From NCBI GenBank assembly GCA_021826315.1, contig JAKAZZ010000005.1:1-64000 (forward strand): 64,000 nt of DNA, read 5' to 3'. The position numbers and the translations under genes were made by a program. The notes below the pieces were generated by a model. It saw only the letters and a program-made list of their open reading frames with translations, did not search any database and was not told the origin of the DNA. The number at the start of each line of letters is the position of its first letter. Position 1 is the first letter of the stretch. This document shows positions 35,958 to 54,160 of this stretch, one piece after another. The DNA is from Actinomycetes bacterium. GTDB lineage: Bacteria > Actinomycetota > Acidimicrobiia > Acidimicrobiales > Acidimicrobiaceae.

Positions 35958-37943
35958 ATGAGCAGACAAATGCCAGATATGAAAAAAACCGGCCCAAACG
36001 GCATGAAGCGTGCCCAAGGAAACCAAGAACAGGCCTGGAAGTGGCTGATTGGCGTCAGTGTGGCTGTCATTTTCATTTTGATTTTGACTTTGAACGTCCT
36101 AAAGGCGACTCCATCGACAGCACTAAATTACTCCACATTCCTAAAGGATGCCTCGAGCAAACAAGTCGCGACCGCCGTCGTCGATAACACCACTGGGAAG
36201 ATCACGGGCACATTCAAAGACGGTACGTCCTATATGGTCAATGGCCCCTCCCCTTCGGTTCCAAACGACCTAACGGCGTTGAGAAACGAAGGTGTCCAGC
36301 TCGACTTCGGGACGTCATCCTCGTCATTGCTCACACTCGCGATTACTTGGCTCGGTCCCATTCTCCTTCTCGTACTCCTCTTCGCCTTCCTAAATCGCAG
36401 GGCGCAGGGTCAGATGAGCGGAATCATGTCAATTGGCAGATCGCGTGCGAAGGTTTACACGACAGAACGTCCGAAGACAACATTCGATGACGTAGCTGGC
36501 TACACCGGCGTAAAGCAGGAGATAACTGAGGTCGTTGACTTTCTCAAGAATGCTTCGCGATTCAAAGAGATCGGCGCTCGCGTTCCAAAGGGAATGCTGT
36601 TAGTAGGACCACCAGGAACAGGAAAGACTCTACTAGCCCGAGCAGTCGCTGGGGAGGCTGGGGTACCGTTCTTGTCAGTTACTGGCTCAGATTTCATGGA
36701 GATGTTCGTAGGCGTTGGCGCGTCTCGCGTACGCGATCTCTTCCAGACCGCACGGAAGCAGGCACCGGCCATCATCTTTATCGACGAAATCGACTCCATC
36801 GGCCGCAAGCGCGGCGCGGGCCTTGGTGGAGGCCACGATGAGAGGGAGCAAACCCTCAACCAGATGCTCTCCGAGATGGACGGGTTCGACCCAACTGAAG
36901 GAATTGTCATGATCGCGGCGACAAACCGCCCTGACATCCTCGATCCAGCCCTTCTCCGCCCAGGAAGATTCGATCGCCAAATCGTAGTACCTCTCCCCGA
37001 CCTAGAGGAGAGACTCCCAATTCTGAAAGTTCATAGTCTTGGGAAAAAGATGTCCAAAGACGTTGATCTCCAACTCGTAGCACGTGGAACTCCCGGGATG
37101 AGCGGTGCAGACCTTGCGAACCTCGTGAACGAGGCAGCACTTCACGCTGTTCGAAGAGGCGACAAAGAGATCCACATGGAAGACTTTGAAGCGGCTCGTG
37201 ACCGAGTACTTATGGGACAACGCAGAGACAGCGTAGTACTCTCGGATTCGGAGAAGGAAAGGGTTGCCTTCCATGAGGGCGGCCACGCCGTACTCGCCTA
37301 TCTACTTCCCCACGCCGATCCAGTGCACAAGGTCACGATCCTGCCAACTGGAATGGCCCTAGGCGTCACTCAACAACTCCCCTTGGAAGAAAAGCACATT
37401 AACTCTAAGGACTACATCGAAGACTCACTCGTCGTCCGTATGGGCGGTAGAGCGGCTGAAACGATCATCTACGGCGACCTCTCGACCGGAGCCTCGAACG
37501 ACCTAGTGCGAAATACCGAGCTAGCTCGAAAGATGGTTCGTGAATGGGGAATGAGCACGGAGGTTGGTCCCATGGCGTGGGGAAGCCAAGAGATGGTCTT
37601 CCTTGGCGACGACCTTATGCACTCCCGCGACTACTCCGAGCAGACGGCACGGATTATCGACATAGAAGTCGAGAAGATCCTCCGCGAGCAAGAAGACCGA
37701 GCCATGGTACTACTTACCAAACACAGAAGTGGTCTAGAAGCAGTCGCCAAGGCGCTCCTTGAGCGAGAGACGATCGACGGTGCTGAAGTTGGCAGATTAG
37801 TTGACGTCGCATATGGAACAAAAGTCCATGAAGACGACAAGACTAGGTGGGTTCCAAAGATCGACTACCGCAGCGAGCAGAGCGCCAAAACGGTCGAAGC
37901 AACCTCAACTGAAGAGGCCGAGGCGACTACAGATGCGAACTAA
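35958..37943 (+). CDS. ftsH: ATP-dependent zinc metalloprotease FtsH
   Basis: [49 protein letters not shown] region; [10 protein letters not shown] zinc site. Confidence 0.97.
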
Positions 37944-38063: not shown

Positions 38064-38079
38064 TAGAACACTTGTTCGA
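38064..38079. promoter_or_regulatory. Candidate LexA/SOS box (TAGAACACTTGTTCGA)
   Basis: 15/16 match to TCGAAC-N4-GTTCGA, the sequence of the two boxes upstream of dnaE2 and imuA' in this window. Lies 34 bp upstream of the small ORF start codon. Confidence 0.7.
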
Positions 38080-38113
38080 TAAAGTGTTACACCCTTGTGA
38101 CATACTTGTCTAC

Positions 38114-38305
38114 ATGAGAGAACAACTTTCACTTTTCGAAGATCATCAAAATGTCGACAATGACAAGGTCAAGCACCTTAAAAACTTGCGGCACCTAAAC
38201 GAAGTACGACGAATTCTCGCATCAACCCCAAGCTACGAAGAGAAGCTAAGGCTGAACCGCCTCACGGCGTCGATAAGCCGCGGCGATCGCCAGATCGCTT
38301 CTTAA
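38114..38305 (+). CDS. 63-aa protein with N-terminal beta-clamp-binding-like motif QLSLF, putatively SOS-regulated
   Basis: MREQLSLFEDHQNVDNDKVKHLKNLRHLNEVRRILASTPSYEEKLRLNRLTASISRGDRQIAS; QLSLF codons at 38123-38137; SOS-box-like operator upstream. Confidence 0.65.
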   Translation: MREQLSLFEDHQNVDNDKVKHLKNLRHLNEVRRILASTPSYEEKLRLNRLTASISRGDRQIAS

Positions 38306-47770: not shown

Positions 47771-50700
47771 TTATCTAAAGTCCCGTGACATTGAAAAGAT
47801 GTCTATCTCTAGTGATGCGATCCTCTTAGCTACGACGTTGATCACATTCGACTTAGCTTCAAGTTGACCATCGATTACCAATGCGCTTGAGGCTCTAACA
47901 ACAGACCGATACTTATCCCAAGTGGCAATAGATACGACTACATTAATCAGTCCACTCTCATCTTCAATGGATAAAAATGTGACTCCCTTAGCGGTAGCCG
48001 GCCTCTGTCTATGGGTAACCACACCCGCGATCCTAACGAACGAACGGTTTCTCGCATCTTTTAGATCCTTAGCTGCGACCGCTCCAATTGAAGTTAAGTA
48101 ATCTCTGTGGTAGCCGACTATGTGCATCTTGGGGGTGATGCCATAGGCCTCTAGATCCATATAGCTCGCCTCCATCGTCGATGGTTCTTCGAATGAAGGC
48201 GCCCTATCACCAAGAACCATACCGGGAAGAGCCTCTCTCCCTCGACCTGCCAAGGGGGCAGAGACCCAAATGGCTTGGCGTCGATTCAATCCGCCCGTAG
48301 ACCCACTTGCCGGTAGTGAGTCCAGAGCTCCCGCTTTAGCCAACGACTCCATCTGATCTTTGTCTATATTGACCGCGATAGCGAGCTCCTCAATAGAGCC
48401 ATATGGACCCTTATCTGCGATCTCTTGTGCCAACTCACCGCCGATCTTACGGATGGAAGAGAGGCCGATCCTTACATGTGGCCCCCTCTTCGCATTCTCA
48501 TAGATCTTCCATAGGTAACCATCTGCCTCCAGGGTCAGCTCCCTATCTCCCTCGGCCTCCATAGGTTCAAGGCTGGTCTCACCCTTAGAGAAGTTGACGT
48601 GGGGGCCAAGTACTCCTACCCCATGGCGCTTAGCATCCTCGATCAGCGTCTCAGGGGACCAAAAACCCATCGGCTGAGAGTCGATGATCGCAGCCACAAA
48701 TGCGCCAGGATAGTAAAACTTAAACCACGCCGAGACATAGACCAGGTACGCAAATGAGGCTGAGTGGCTCTCTGGAAAACCAAAGTTAGCAAACGCCTTT
48801 AACTTAGAGAAGATCTCATCTGCAATATCGCCTACGATGCCATTCTTCTCCATGCCCACATAGAAGCGCTCCCTCAGCCTCTCCATCCTCTCAGTGGAGC
48901 GCTTAGAGCCCATAGCTTGGCGCAACTGATCAGCATCTGAGGGGGAAAATCCACCTACATCTATGGCCATCTGCATGAGTTGCTCTTGGAACAAGGGAAC
49001 ACCTAGCGTCTTTTTGAGCGACTTCTCAAGGAGTGGATGAAGGTAAGTAACCTCCTCCTCGCCATTTCTCCTACGAATATAGGGATGAACCGAGCCTCCT
49101 TGAATGGGACCAGGCCTAATAAGGGCAACCTCAACGACTAGGTCATAGAAGCATCTTGGCCTAAGTCGAGGCAAAGTCGCCATCTGCGCCCTACTCTCAA
49201 CTTGAAAGACCCCTACTGTATCGGCTGCCGCCAACATCTCATAGACGTCGCTATCTTGCTCCAAAAGCGCCAGGTCGACCTCTACACCGTGAAAGTGCTT
49301 CACGAGATCGACCATACGGTGAAGGGCTTCCAGCATCCCCAGACCCAGTAGGTCGAATTTGACTAAACCCGCAATGGCACAGTCGTCTTTATCCCACTGC
49401 AAGACGCTACGGTCGGACCTTCTCGCCCATTCGACTGGACAAACTTCGACTATTGGACGGTCGCAGATGACCATACCTCCGGTATGAATTCCAAGGTGTC
49501 GCGGTGCCCTGTCGATACTTCGAGCAATATCAGCCATCTTTGAGGGAATCTCAACCAGTGGCCTACCGCTACGGTCCTTCGCCTCAAGAAGGTCACTAAC
49601 TGACTTATACCTATCGATACTCTTAGACCACTTTGAAAGCACCGAAGAGGGATAGCCAAAGACCCTGCCAAGGTCACGAACTATAGAGCGAGAGCGATAG
49701 GTTATGACATTTGCAACCATCGCCGCTTTGTCACGACCGTACTTGTTGTACACGTACTGGATTACCTCCTCTCGAGCCTCGCTCTCAAAGTCGACGTCGA
49801 TATCGGGAGGGCCGTCACGCTCAGTCGAGAGGAACCTCTCGAAGAGGAGGCCGAGTGAAACTGGATCTACATTTGTAATTCCAAGGGCGTAGCAGACCGC
49901 TGAATTTGCCGCCGAACCTCGCCCTTGGCAGAAGATATTTGACCTCTTTGAAAATTGAACGATATCCCATACGATCAAGAAGTAACCCTCAAAGCCGAGA
50001 CGTTCTATGATTTCGAGTTCATATTCAATCTGCTTATAGGCTCCCTTTATCCTTTCGTTCGATCTAGGGCCATACCTCGTCAATGCACCATCGTAGGTAA
50101 GTTGCCTCAAGTAGCTAGCCTCACTTATTCCATCTGGACGCTCAAATGAAGGCAGCTTGGGGGCAACCAACGATAGGTCAAAGGCACAGAGATCGCCGAT
50201 GTCGTAGGCATTTTCTAAGAGGCGCTCGTATCTTCTAAATCTCCGATACTGCTCCTTTGGTGAGCGAAGGTACGCAAGGTGAGAAGGGGGAAGCCACCCT
50301 TCTATCTCTTCGAGAGTCCTATTTGCCCTAATTGCAGCCACCGTGGCAAAGGTGCGGGCACCAGTCGATCGAGCATAATGAACGTTATTGGTCGCAAGAA
50401 CATTCAATCCAGCACGATCTGCAATCTTTATAAGTTCATCATTTCTTACTTCATCTACTGGATCTCCATGGTCCCAACACTCAATTGCAAAGTTATCCCT
50501 ACCGAGTACCTCCCTTAGTCGAAGAGCCTCCTTCAGGGCAGCCGAAGGGCCACTTTCGTAGAGCGCCTGCGATATCGCCCCCTTGCGACAACCGCTCAAA
50601 AAGTAGATGTCGTCGAGGTTGCTTCGAGAAAGATCATCGAGTGTCAAGACGAAAGATCCCTTTTCCCTATTTGCCATATGCCCCTCAGAGATCAGACGAG

Positions 50701-51010
50701 ATAGCTGTCCATAACCCTTTGGCCCCTTGGCTAAAGCCACTATGTGGCTGCCGCTTGGATCTTCGACGTTGTCACGCGGTCGGCCACTATTTAAAGTGAG
50801 CTCCGCACCAAAGACGGTACGCAGAGGGGTTCCTTTGGCAGCGGAGGAGAAGGCGACTACGCCATAAAGGCCATTGTGATCCGTCAGAGCACATATGGGA
50901 AGGTCGAGTTCAACAGCTCTCTCTACGATCTCGACTGGAGATGAGACGCCATCTAAGAAGCTGAAGTTGGAGTGACAGTGCAACTCGGCATATCGATATT
51001 CATAGGCCAT
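47771..51010 (-). CDS. dnaE2: Error-prone DNA polymerase III alpha-type subunit DnaE2 (ImuC)
   Basis: PHP domain (AELHCHSNFSFLDGVSSPVEIVERA), catalytic GPPDIDVDFES, DnaE2-type 1079 aa length, SOS box upstream. Confidence 0.96.
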   Translation of the reverse strand: MAYEYRYAELHCHSNFSFLDGVSSPVEIVERAVELDLPICALTDHNGLYGVVAFSSAAKGTPLRTVFGAELTLNSGRPRDNVEDPSGSHIVALAKGPKGYGQLSRLISEGHMANREKGSFVLTLDDLSRSNLDDIYFLSGCRKGAISQALYESGPSAALKEALRLREVLGRDNFAIECWDHGDPVDEVRNDELIKIADRAGLNVLATNNVHYARSTGARTFATVAAIRANRTLEEIEGWLPPSHLAYLRSPKEQYRRFRRYERLLENAYDIGDLCAFDLSLVAPKLPSFERPDGISEASYLRQLTYDGALTRYGPRSNERIKGAYKQIEYELEIIERLGFEGYFLIVWDIVQFSKRSNIFCQGRGSAANSAVCYALGITNVDPVSLGLLFERFLSTERDGPPDIDVDFESEAREEVIQYVYNKYGRDKAAMVANVITYRSRSIVRDLGRVFGYPSSVLSKWSKSIDRYKSVSDLLEAKDRSGRPLVEIPSKMADIARSIDRAPRHLGIHTGGMVICDRPIVEVCPVEWARRSDRSVLQWDKDDCAIAGLVKFDLLGLGMLEALHRMVDLVKHFHGVEVDLALLEQDSDVYEMLAAADTVGVFQVESRAQMATLPRLRPRCFYDLVVEVALIRPGPIQGGSVHPYIRRRNGEEEVTYLHPLLEKSLKKTLGVPLFQEQLMQMAIDVGGFSPSDADQLRQAMGSKRSTERMERLRERFYVGMEKNGIVGDIADEIFSKLKAFANFGFPESHSASFAYLVYVSAWFKFYYPGAFVAAIIDSQPMGFWSPETLIEDAKRHGVGVLGPHVNFSKGETSLEPMEAEGDRELTLEADGYLWKIYENAKRGPHVRIGLSSIRKIGGELAQEIADKGPYGSIEELAIAVNIDKDQMESLAKAGALDSLPASGSTGGLNRRQAIWVSAPLAGRGREALPGMVLGDRAPSFEEPSTMEASYMDLEAYGITPKMHIVGYHRDYLTSIGAVAAKDLKDARNRSFVRIAGVVTHRQRPATAKGVTFLSIEDESGLINVVVSIATWDKYRSVVRASSALVIDGQLEAKSNVINVVAKRIASLEIDIFSMSRDFR

Positions 51011-51016
51011 ACATAT

Positions 51017-51022
51017 ATTTTA
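51017..51022 (-). promoter_or_regulatory. Candidate -10 element TAAAAT of dnaE2, 6 nt upstream of the ATG
   Basis: Minus-strand sequence TTCGATAAAATATATGTATG; identical spacing to the imuA' promoter. Confidence 0.6.
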
Positions 51023-51040
51023 TCGAACATATGTTCGATA
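51021..51040. promoter_or_regulatory. LexA/SOS box: perfect 20-bp palindrome TATCGAACATATGTTCGATA
   Basis: Perfect palindrome containing TCGAAC-N4-GTTCGA, 10 nt upstream of the dnaE2 ATG. Confidence 0.92.
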
Positions 51041-51141
51041 AGGAAGAGTGAAATATTTATCGTAAGATCCCAAGGCCTTAGTCGATACGAAATGACACAC
51101 GTACGTGCTATAAAAGAGGGAGGCTACCAGACGGGGTTGAG

Positions 51142-51801
51142 TTGGAACTTTTCAAAGGAATCAAAGAGAAGCACGATTACGAGCAGGCAAAGGCTGTGGT
51201 CGATGCGTGGAACCACCAGCATGAAGAGCTACAGAAGGCTCTGAATCTGATTAAGCAGGGTGGAGACTTTACAAATAACACTCTGAACCTTCAAAAGGGC
51301 GAAGGGGTCTACATACAGGTCCACAACGTATCGCTCCTAGGGGATGTCAAGTCAGCCGGCCACTACGTATCAGGCCACCAAGGTATCTCAATACCCATAG
51401 GCTCCCTAGGAGGGAGGTCTGTTCGCTACAACGTGGGGCGATCGAAGGGCCACTACGAGGCGGGCGCCACCCATGAAGCGGGGGTAGATACAGGGCAGTT
51501 CTACATAACTAATACCCGAATCATCTTTGTCGGCACAAAGAAGACCACGGTCATCCCAATATCAACGGTGATTTCGGCAAATGTAGCAAGCGGAGCCGTT
51601 ACCGTATCATCGAGCAAGCTAACAAAGACCCTTCGCGTCTGGATCGGTAGCGAACTCGAAGAGTGGGTTAGCGAATGGATCAAACTTGCCTTAGCTGTAA
51701 ATAGCGAAGGCAAGGACAAAGTAGCAGAAGACCTAACCAATCAAATCGTTGAGCTCGAAGCAGCTAAACCCAATGACCCCATCAACCCCAACGGTGCCTG
51801 A
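51142..51801 (+). CDS. Conserved PH/GRAM-like domain protein (TTG start), inserted between dnaE2 and imuB
   Basis: 219 aa; GISIPIGSLGGRSVRYNVGRSKGHYEAG...DTGQFYITNTRIIFVGTKKTTVIPISTVISA resembles bacterial PH/GRAM-fold proteins. Confidence 0.75.
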   Translation: MELFKGIKEKHDYEQAKAVVDAWNHQHEELQKALNLIKQGGDFTNNTLNLQKGEGVYIQVHNVSLLGDVKSAGHYVSGHQGISIPIGSLGGRSVRYNVGRSKGHYEAGATHEAGVDTGQFYITNTRIIFVGTKKTTVIPISTVISANVASGAVTVSSSKLTKTLRVWIGSELEEWVSEWIKLALAVNSEGKDKVAEDLTNQIVELEAAKPNDPINPNGA

Positions 51802-51823
51802 TCCCACGAGATAGCTAGAACTG

Positions 51824-53509
51824 CTAGTCGTAGATGGCCTCAAGGTGCCACTTGGAAGCCTCCATTACTGCATTTAGCGCAACTCCATCACGACTTACAA
51901 TCTGGACTCGAGCTAGCCGGCGGCGGCGAGCATCATCCCACCATAGCTCGTTCATGGGCCATGGCCCCAAAATACGCTCGATCTCTCTCTTTTTCCACCC
52001 CAAAGACGGAACGGAGAAGAACTTCGGGCTGCATGTCAACTCCCCGCCCGAACTAACACCAACTACTAGCCCACCCTCTGATGTCATCTCCATCTCAACC
52101 ATAGGATCAAAGACCATCGATGGTTTAACGTTGGGAACTTGGCCTGGCCACGGCGGAGTATCTTTCGCACTATCTCCCTTTGGCTCCTCTTCAAAGAGGT
52201 CTAGTTGCCAGTTGAGAAGCTGGAATTGGTCTCTAGGAGATCTCCCCGCTCTCTTACGAGGGACTTTGATGGCGCCATCTCCTACCTTGTCTCTAGCCCG
52301 TTCTATGGCACGCAAAACCCTATCTTGAGGATGTACAGCCACCTGATATAGGTCAAGTTGGACAAATGGCGTCGAAGTGATCTCCATGACTTCAATATCA
52401 CAGTAGATAACTCCAGATCTTGGAGGATCCTGCCCTATCGCAGGATTCTGCCACCCCTCCAACTGCCTTCTGACATAACTAATCAAAAAAGATGGCGAAA
52501 TTGGAACTGAGCTCGACCAAACCCTACTGATGGCCTCCGTGGTCTCGGTCTCAAAAGAGATCCTGACTCGAAGAGGATAGATACCCTCGTTCGTTAGGGA
52601 CGAGAAGAAGTCGTCGACCTTAGCTCTAATGGCAAAGGATATAGCTTGGCTCAAAGTCTCTGGAGGATCTAGGTCTATACGAACATGGTGGCGCTTTTTG
52701 ACCTCTCTAGCCTCGACTAGGTCACCGTCTACCCCTCGAGCTAGCTCATAGAGGCGACTCCCGACCTTCCCAAAACGCTCCACCATCAAATCTCTTGGGA
52801 TATCTAGGATCTGACCCACGTGGTTCACCCCGACCTTAGACAAGGTATCGACCTCCCCCTCATCTATCAAGATCCCAATTGGAAAGGGGGCGATAAATTC
52901 CCTAGAGGACCCGGCTTCAACGACGGCCGAGAAGGTCGATGCCACCTTGGCTACGAATGGACCGTCTGCTAAACCGACCCCAAAAGAGAGGTTCGAAAGC
53001 AGCTCAGAGACGAGGTGGTAGCCTTTGGCGGTAGTTGGGGGTTTGACAATAGAGGTAGCGCTACTGCCTCTAGATACAGATAGCTCACTTAAGGCATCGA
53101 TAACTTTAGATAAAAGAGCCTTCTCCCCACCAAAGTAGCGCGATGGTCCTTTTACATTAAATCCACATACTCCGGGTGAAAAGACCTCGACCTCCGGACA
53201 AAACGACTCAGCTACTGCAACTACCTCTTCAAAGGCTGCCATATCGAAGTCAAAGTCATCGTCGATACAGATGAGATCAAAGGAGGCAGATGCAAGGGTG
53301 ATGGCTCGATCACCAATAGATACGCCTAGCTTCCTAGCGGTACTCGTAAGAGCAACAACTCTTGCATCCTTTATGACGACTGCCGCTTGATCATCTGGGA
53401 TCGACCTCGACAGAAAGGGCCATCCACGATAAGAGATAACCAGAGTCCTTGCCAAAGGCTTGGTCTCTAATTCAAATAACTCTCCTCCGCTAAAAGATCT
53501 CCGCCTCAT
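51824..53509 (-). CDS. imuB: ImuB, catalytically degenerate Y-family polymerase-like mutasome subunit
   Basis: Y-family-like fold; actinobacterial ImuB C-terminus NELWWDDARRRRLARVQIVSRDGVALNAVMEASKWHLEAIYD; clamp motif QLDLF at 52193-52207; ATGA overlap with imuA'. Confidence 0.93.
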   Translation of the reverse strand: MRRRSFSGGELFELETKPLARTLVISYRGWPFLSRSIPDDQAAVVIKDARVVALTSTARKLGVSIGDRAITLASASFDLICIDDDFDFDMAAFEEVVAVAESFCPEVEVFSPGVCGFNVKGPSRYFGGEKALLSKVIDALSELSVSRGSSATSIVKPPTTAKGYHLVSELLSNLSFGVGLADGPFVAKVASTFSAVVEAGSSREFIAPFPIGILIDEGEVDTLSKVGVNHVGQILDIPRDLMVERFGKVGSRLYELARGVDGDLVEAREVKKRHHVRIDLDPPETLSQAISFAIRAKVDDFFSSLTNEGIYPLRVRISFETETTEAISRVWSSSVPISPSFLISYVRRQLEGWQNPAIGQDPPRSGVIYCDIEVMEITSTPFVQLDLYQVAVHPQDRVLRAIERARDKVGDGAIKVPRKRAGRSPRDQFQLLNWQLDLFEEEPKGDSAKDTPPWPGQVPNVKPSMVFDPMVEMEMTSEGGLVVGVSSGGELTCSPKFFSVPSLGWKKREIERILGPWPMNELWWDDARRRRLARVQIVSRDGVALNAVMEASKWHLEAIYD

Positions 53510-54132
53510 AGCCCAACCACCGACTTGGATCTGACATTAGGCCACTTCGCAGAGTCGGCTTGAACGACCAAAGACCTGTTAGATACAGGGGTCGAACCCA
53601 AAAGTTCCCATCTACTTGCCTTGGTCCATATTGAAAAGTCAGCCCCGTAAGGAAGATGGTTTAGCACCGATGTACCACTGTAAAGATAGACAAGTATCGA
53701 CTTAGAGACCCTTGCCCTATTAGCCAAGGAACGAGAGTTCTTATAGTCGATATCCCTGTTCAGGGAAAGGACTACGATATCAAACCCGTCTAGCAGAAGA
53801 GAGGCCGCCTCAATTGCTTGATTTGAGCCACACTCTACAACTAGAAGGCGGCGCAGATCTATCCCCATATCGGCAGCTGCACCAAAACCCCAACTATGGA
53901 GACCAACCAACCCAACAAAACTTCCCCCTGATATGGCTTGGGATATGAGCGAGAAGATCATAGAGGTTGCACCGCTGCCAAAGTCGCCGTAGACGACCCC
54001 CACTGAACCGCGCTTTAGAGATCCACCTGGGAGTAGATCTCTAAGATGACCAAGGACATCGATGCGCTGATCCATGAGAAGGGACGCTGGCTCTACAACT
54101 CCCTGCAACTTAGTCAGATTGGTAACCTTCAT
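53506..54132 (-). CDS. imuA': ImuA' (RecA-like mutasome accessory protein)
   Basis: 208-aa RecA-like protein immediately upstream of and overlapping imuB; SOS box upstream. Confidence 0.88.
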   Translation of the reverse strand: MKVTNLTKLQGVVEPASLLMDQRIDVLGHLRDLLPGGSLKRGSVGVVYGDFGSGATSMIFSLISQAISGGSFVGLVGLHSWGFGAAADMGIDLRRLLVVECGSNQAIEAASLLLDGFDIVVLSLNRDIDYKNSRSLANRARVSKSILVYLYSGTSVLNHLPYGADFSIWTKASRWELLGSTPVSNRSLVVQADSAKWPNVRSKSVVGL

Positions 54133-54138
54133 ACCTAA

Positions 54139-54144
54139 ATTATA
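54139..54144 (-). promoter_or_regulatory. -10 element TATAAT of the imuA'-imuB operon, 6 nt upstream of the ATG
   Basis: Minus-strand sequence CGAACATATGTTCGATATAATTTAGGTATG. Confidence 0.7.
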
Positions 54145-54160
54145 TCGAACATATGTTCGA
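54145..54160. promoter_or_regulatory. LexA/SOS box TCGAACATATGTTCGA upstream of imuA'
   Basis: Perfect 16-bp palindrome, identical core to the dnaE2 box. Confidence 0.92.

Follow-up and report, generated by a model that had tools for sequence, protein, structure and literature searches.

The ORF at positions 38114-38305 (+) of the window, the whole 64,000-nucleotide stretch analysed here, encodes a 63-aa protein (MREQLSLFEDHQ...RQIAS) that belongs to a new family. From its sequences the family appears to be undescribed, spread through the Acidimicrobiia and present at about one copy per genome. Damage-type control, a clamp motif, an -AA end and a single helix together make a short-lived occupant of the DnaN cleft the best reading. 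The protein is probably induced by damage and rapidly degraded, and would either compete at the clamp or tether a partner there.

The ORF opens with an ATG, has 63 codons, and lies between ftsH (which ends at 37943) and a YdjC/ChbG-like gene. A preliminary description of this DNA had placed 34 nt between a palindrome and the ATG of a small ORF, and QLSLF at residues 4-8 of its product; both agree with the sequence and the ORF translation. A search with the single protein found no homologue in 299 genomes of the order or in GTDB contigs, as might be expected of a spurious ORF, or of a box and a peptide that came together by chance. This explanation has next to no probability, since the orthologue in genome G305 starts with MRDQLSLFEET and has a LexA box identical to that of the window, the gene is under purifying selection, and the family extends through the class. 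Between orthologues, most substitutions are at codon position 3, and dN/dS is 0.16-0.28 in the five pairs with an estimable dS; for the window/G305 pair the synonymous sites are saturated, and 39 of the 77 differences are at codon position 3. These patterns mark it as a real coding gene under purifying selection, and on conservation and dN/dS the chance-ORF reading was rejected.

Homologues do exist, and were reached by reading downstream of ftsH in relatives and then by profile. Other positional orthologues downstream of ftsH begin with MSKQLVLLED, MKDQIALLDQ, MTNQLPLIEDD or MRNQLPLIEDE, and all then carry a helix of the form WK[LI]DxxTRRIGLxQxxxARxxLL. The profile matched 135 of 396 Acidimicrobiia genomes, usually once per genome, a count that may include false matches near the threshold and that misses short divergent members. 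Across the phylum it matched 17 of 398 genomes, 16 of them within Acidimicrobiia. A DNA pattern joining the family promoter (see below) to M-x-x-Q-L-x-L, run against 264 Gb of genome sequence from bacteria and archaea, identified 56 loci, whose titles name Actinobacteria/Actinomycetota or Acidimicrobiia lineages in all but two cases. These two (L187 and L208) are lake MAGs deposited as Bifidobacterium breve; their family members differ very little from those in lake MAGs of Acidimicrobiia, and the two are probably mislabelled. A strict regular expression for the helix fits 39 of the 56 loci, and the same helix region is visible by eye in the remaining 17, where one member is shortened by a stop and one lies at a contig edge. 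In 22/22 loci whose downstream flank reaches 3 kb or more, YdjC and/or PIG-L deacetylase genes, as in the window, are neighbours within the fetched DNA, with the YdjC match on the opposite side in one locus. Because these neighbours are shared, the window gene is orthologous to the distant members. Searches of Pfam, NCBIfam and the PDB returned no family match for the members, nor did Foldseek against the PDB, and PHROGs gave one weak match (E 0.0018) for one of 37 members, consistent with the earlier view that this is not a described family.

The LexA/SOS box TAGAACACTTGTTCGA at 38064-38079 (+) has perfect GAAC-N4-GTTC half-sites and is a palindrome of the actinobacterial type near the start of the gene. 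It had been described as a 15/16 match to the window's own SOS palindrome; the actual figure is 13/16 against TCGAACATATGTTCGA, which occurs as two perfect boxes at 51023 (before dnaE2) and 54145 (before imuA'-imuB). Across the 2.8 Mb genome, YCGAACAYNTGTTCGA is matched with one mismatch or none upstream of dnaE2, imuA', lexA and this ORF, and at one further, unassigned site (C60); sites with two mismatches include recA, and lexA is preceded by two related boxes. The reversed pattern, used as a control in the same genome, gave 6 sites in total at up to two mismatches. The box upstream of the small ORF thus exceeds chance, and is a good member of the SOS set because related sites in the genome precede lexA, recA, dnaE2 and imuA' as well as this ORF. 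In the window's genus GAAC-N4-GTTC starts 50-51 nt 5' of the ATG in 10/10 members found, just 5' of the -26 element discussed below. The box is apparently an addition of this genus and not a class-wide control, so that the SOS-box control first proposed stands for the genus and fails for the class, where a leaderless PafBC-type promoter is conserved. The perfect SOS boxes of dnaE2 and imuA' (window 47771-54160, -) end about 12 nt from each ATG, and this position suggests leaderless or near-leaderless mRNAs for these genes as well.

The family promoter is TGTCAC-N10-nAnnnT, and since its -10 element stands 6-7 nt 5' of the ATG, a leaderless mRNA is expected. Of 48 distinct members identified independently of the promoter, 44 show TGTCACAC with no more than one mismatch within 80 nt upstream (43 of these at -28/-29 from the ATG), and in 42 it is followed at the expected distance by nAnnnT. 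For the first element, shuffled upstream sequences give 1.1 on average and 5 at most. PafBC regulon promoters have the form TGTCGG/TGTCAG/TGTCAC-N10-TANNNT (PMC8151990), and the family spacing equals that of TGTCAC-N10-TANNNT, a variant of this motif described in M. tuberculosis (PMC8151990); the first -10 base in the family is usually C or G, not the T of TANNNT. Once activated by ssDNA, PafBC works as an activator by redirecting sigma-A RNA polymerase (PMC11804915). Of 60 genomes of the order, 57 encode PafB/PafC-like proteins, most relatives showing two adjacent matches, while the window genome (G000) encodes PafB and PafC as a single 651-aa fusion protein (L159, G000:C56).

The strict promoter pattern was matched in 84 of the 299 genomes of the order and its reversed control in none. 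Genes outside the family that lie behind the same promoter include rmuC (Pfam E 7e-62), dinB (IMS, 4e-47), an SbcD-like metallophosphoesterase, DUF222/HNH genes and LysM proteins. This order-wide strict pattern is the basis of the regulon claim, because the loose pattern is not clearly enriched in the window genome (30 sites, with 24 for the control). In the window, the -26 element at 38085-38092 (+) has decayed to TGTTACAC from the family consensus TGTCACAC, and in G305 it reads TGATACAC; the -10 element CATACT (38101-38106, +) is 7 nt 5' of the ATG and again implies a leaderless mRNA. On the simplest reading, the window's genus added LexA control to the gene, and in the window species and G305 the gene may depend chiefly on LexA. 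These sequence patterns give good support to PafBC and LexA as the regulators, which would be expected to act in vivo.

Several other small proteins are encoded behind the same leaderless promoter. A second small family, rich in Cys/His, has an -AA end in 5/5 members seen (L232, L233, L234, L239 and L247). A family of 100-143 aa with an RFAxxARxLG...SFRSPP-like sequence (L222, L223, L269-L271 and L300) has several members that end in -ALAA or -SSAA, and a Pfam search with L222 found no match. Small CDxC...ACDDC proteins (L263, L298 and L299) also occur, with no Pfam match for L298. One genome, G224, has 15 copies of the promoter, of which those at L226 and L249 stand ahead of ORFs similar to the DUF222/HNH protein at L224. 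In a promoter-only scan of viral contigs the pattern is also present outside the clade among the matches listed.

The clamp-binding-type motif QLSLF (residues 4-8; 38123-38137, +) lies in a region predicted to be unstructured and so accessible. In the family as a whole the N-terminal peptide is QLxL[L/I/F], or [L/I/F/V] at the last position across most members, and MREQLSLFEDHQ and MERQLILLDDDG are putative DnaN-cleft peptides of this kind. Conservation of Q4, L5 and L7 in the set found with the promoter-plus-QL pattern is given by construction and is not evidence; the set found by promoter only serves instead. Here Q[LI]x[LF] is present in 23 of 25 members, including those with an N-terminal extension that moves the motif to about residue 20, whereas a motif of this type occurs within the first 25 residues of 1 in 303 long ORFs; the family sequences are related, and neither this count nor that of the -AA ends below is one of independent events. 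Conservation of QLSLF had been proposed earlier as a check: homologues retain QLxL, and among those seen, QLSLF with its F is confined to the window species and its nearest relative.

It is rather improbable that the motif targets a partner other than the clamp, with a merely convergent likeness, and that the protein is some other damage-induced regulator. The two remaining promoter-only members have KLPF or ALPF in place of the motif, as such a regulator would allow, and in several lineages position 5 is not hydrophobic: 19 of the 52 members of the pattern-found set have T, R, A, P or S there, and 13 of these 19 also lack a hydrophobic residue at position 6. This appears to be a weak point for a classical clamp peptide. 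Against a different partner, the motif is retained when its distance from the start varies, QLSLF is almost the same as QLDLFEEE in the nearby ImuB (a related QLDLF had been correctly noted there), and in the window it is the published, textbook consensus for clamp binding (PMC9690074). Binding of the small protein to the DnaN clamp is likely. In the ImuB proteins of the order (L308-L336), QLGFWG is accompanied by another peptide, GGRxPxxQ[LV]xL[IV]P, which is similar to the small family's motif; [ED]Q[LV]xL[IV]P as a clamp motif in ImuB is suggestive only.

Members of the family are mostly 44-90 aa and consist of the N-terminal motif, a linker, an amphipathic helix (LDxxTRxxGRxGVAxARxxL) and then, in most, a terminal -AA. 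The AlphaFold2 model of a core member has one helix at residues 19-44, with pLDDT of about 98 over residues 21-40. For the window member, in which the C-terminal half is divergent, AlphaFold2 predicts an unstructured start and helices at residues 12-37 and 41-62 (mean pLDDT 77.5, pTM 0.39; pLDDT 85-87 over residues 21-50), the first of which (38147-38224, +) includes the family helix region. The -AA end is found in 23 of 25 members of the promoter-only set and 42 of 52 of the pattern-found set, and in 11 of 289 background ORFs. The tmRNA tag of the window genome is AEPQLALAA, and the -AA end may be a ClpXP-type degron through which the protein would be degraded. In the window's genus -AA is mostly lost, and the window member ends in -IAS (38294-38302, +), which is why this conserved feature escaped the preliminary description, as did the conservation of the helix.

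Since the helix is about as well conserved as the motif, the protein could be a recruiter and not a brake, with the motif anchored on DnaN and the helix bringing a repair partner (a translesion polymerase, a nuclease or ClpXP, for example) to stalled forks. The 45-aa core members, which have QLxLL, a short W-bearing linker and a single helix running to the C-terminus, barely exceed a peptide, a linker and a helix that ends at the degron, as would suit a tether. Recruitment as the main role is nevertheless unlikely; the shared neighbours are the YdjC/ChbG-like and PIG-L deacetylase genes, and there are no repair genes among them.

Parts of this architecture are found in known proteins. Hda has a QLxL-type clamp motif near its N-terminus, and clamp clients such as ImuB and DinB have one also, ImuB of the window among them. 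These are enzymes or polymerase-like proteins, whereas the new protein is made of a peptide, a linker and a helix only. SidA, DidA, YneA and SosA are short division inhibitors induced by SOS or damage, presumably short-lived and usually acting at the membrane. The new protein is also short, has a damage-type promoter and is presumably short-lived, but they target cell division, and it has a clamp motif and no evident membrane segment. E. coli RecN is damage-induced, ends in -LAA and is turned over by ClpXP; it is a large SMC-like protein that is unrelated to the new family.

SocB of the Caulobacter crescentus SocAB system is similar in idea, since it uses a clamp motif to bind the DnaN cleft and ClpXP degrades it (PMC9690074, PMC5422525). 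The union of a clamp motif and a ClpXP-type end in the new family would fit a toxin-like replication inhibitor of the SocB type that is held low by proteolysis. SocB, however, is the toxin of a toxin-antitoxin pair and depends on an adaptor, SocA, while no partner gene is evident for the new family, and no antitoxin or adaptor gene stands out in its conserved neighbourhood. The new family also differs in that it mostly bears its own -AA, has a damage promoter and is conserved through the class; its gene resembles a core damage-regulon gene and not a mobile module. The promoter-plus-QL pattern had 0 matches in viral contigs, and protein searches found no member in phages. A SocB-type toxin is thus a distinctly poor candidate. 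RipA, a toxin of Streptococcus pneumoniae, also targets the clamp and affects replication (PMC12795458); it is part of a toxin-antitoxin system in another phylum and is set beside the new family by description.

As a short-lived occupant of the DnaN cleft, the protein would act as follows. Damage would generate ssDNA and RecA filaments, and the leaderless transcript would be switched on by PafBC in most Acidimicrobiia and/or by LexA cleavage in the window's genus. The unstructured QLxL[L/I/F] N-terminus would dock in the hydrophobic cleft of DnaN and displace DnaE1, ImuB and other clients by competition, while the conserved C-terminal helix may strengthen the hold or tie a partner to the clamp. 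Most relatives expose an -AA end that would make the protein a ClpXP-type substrate, so that its effect would stop soon after its expression stops. The net outcome would be a transient brake on clamp traffic under damage, or a re-routing of it. In a bolder and quite tentative version, the family would be a clamp regulator that times itself and is present throughout the class: it would plug the DnaN cleft, bear a ClpXP-type degron of its own, and brake replication or hand it to repair polymerases for only as long as the damage signal lasts. Such a regulator might also deliver clamp-bound proteins to ClpXP, a form of clamp-coupled proteolysis.

To our knowledge, few regulators of the bacterial sliding clamp are known, and inhibitors come mostly from phages and toxin systems. 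The family described here appears to be new; a regulator that binds the clamp is of a kind already known, and its physiological role is one that we infer. The promoter results would extend a PafBC-type damage regulon to the Acidimicrobiia, and the presence of several small regulon products with ssrA-like ends suggests a damage response built for quick switch-off. The 45-aa core makes the idea of a clamp regulator directly testable, and since the clamp cleft is an antibiotic target, natural peptides that bind it would be of practical interest. If the reading is true, a conserved chromosomal clamp regulator under damage control would give the Acidimicrobiia a dedicated control of polymerase access at damaged forks.
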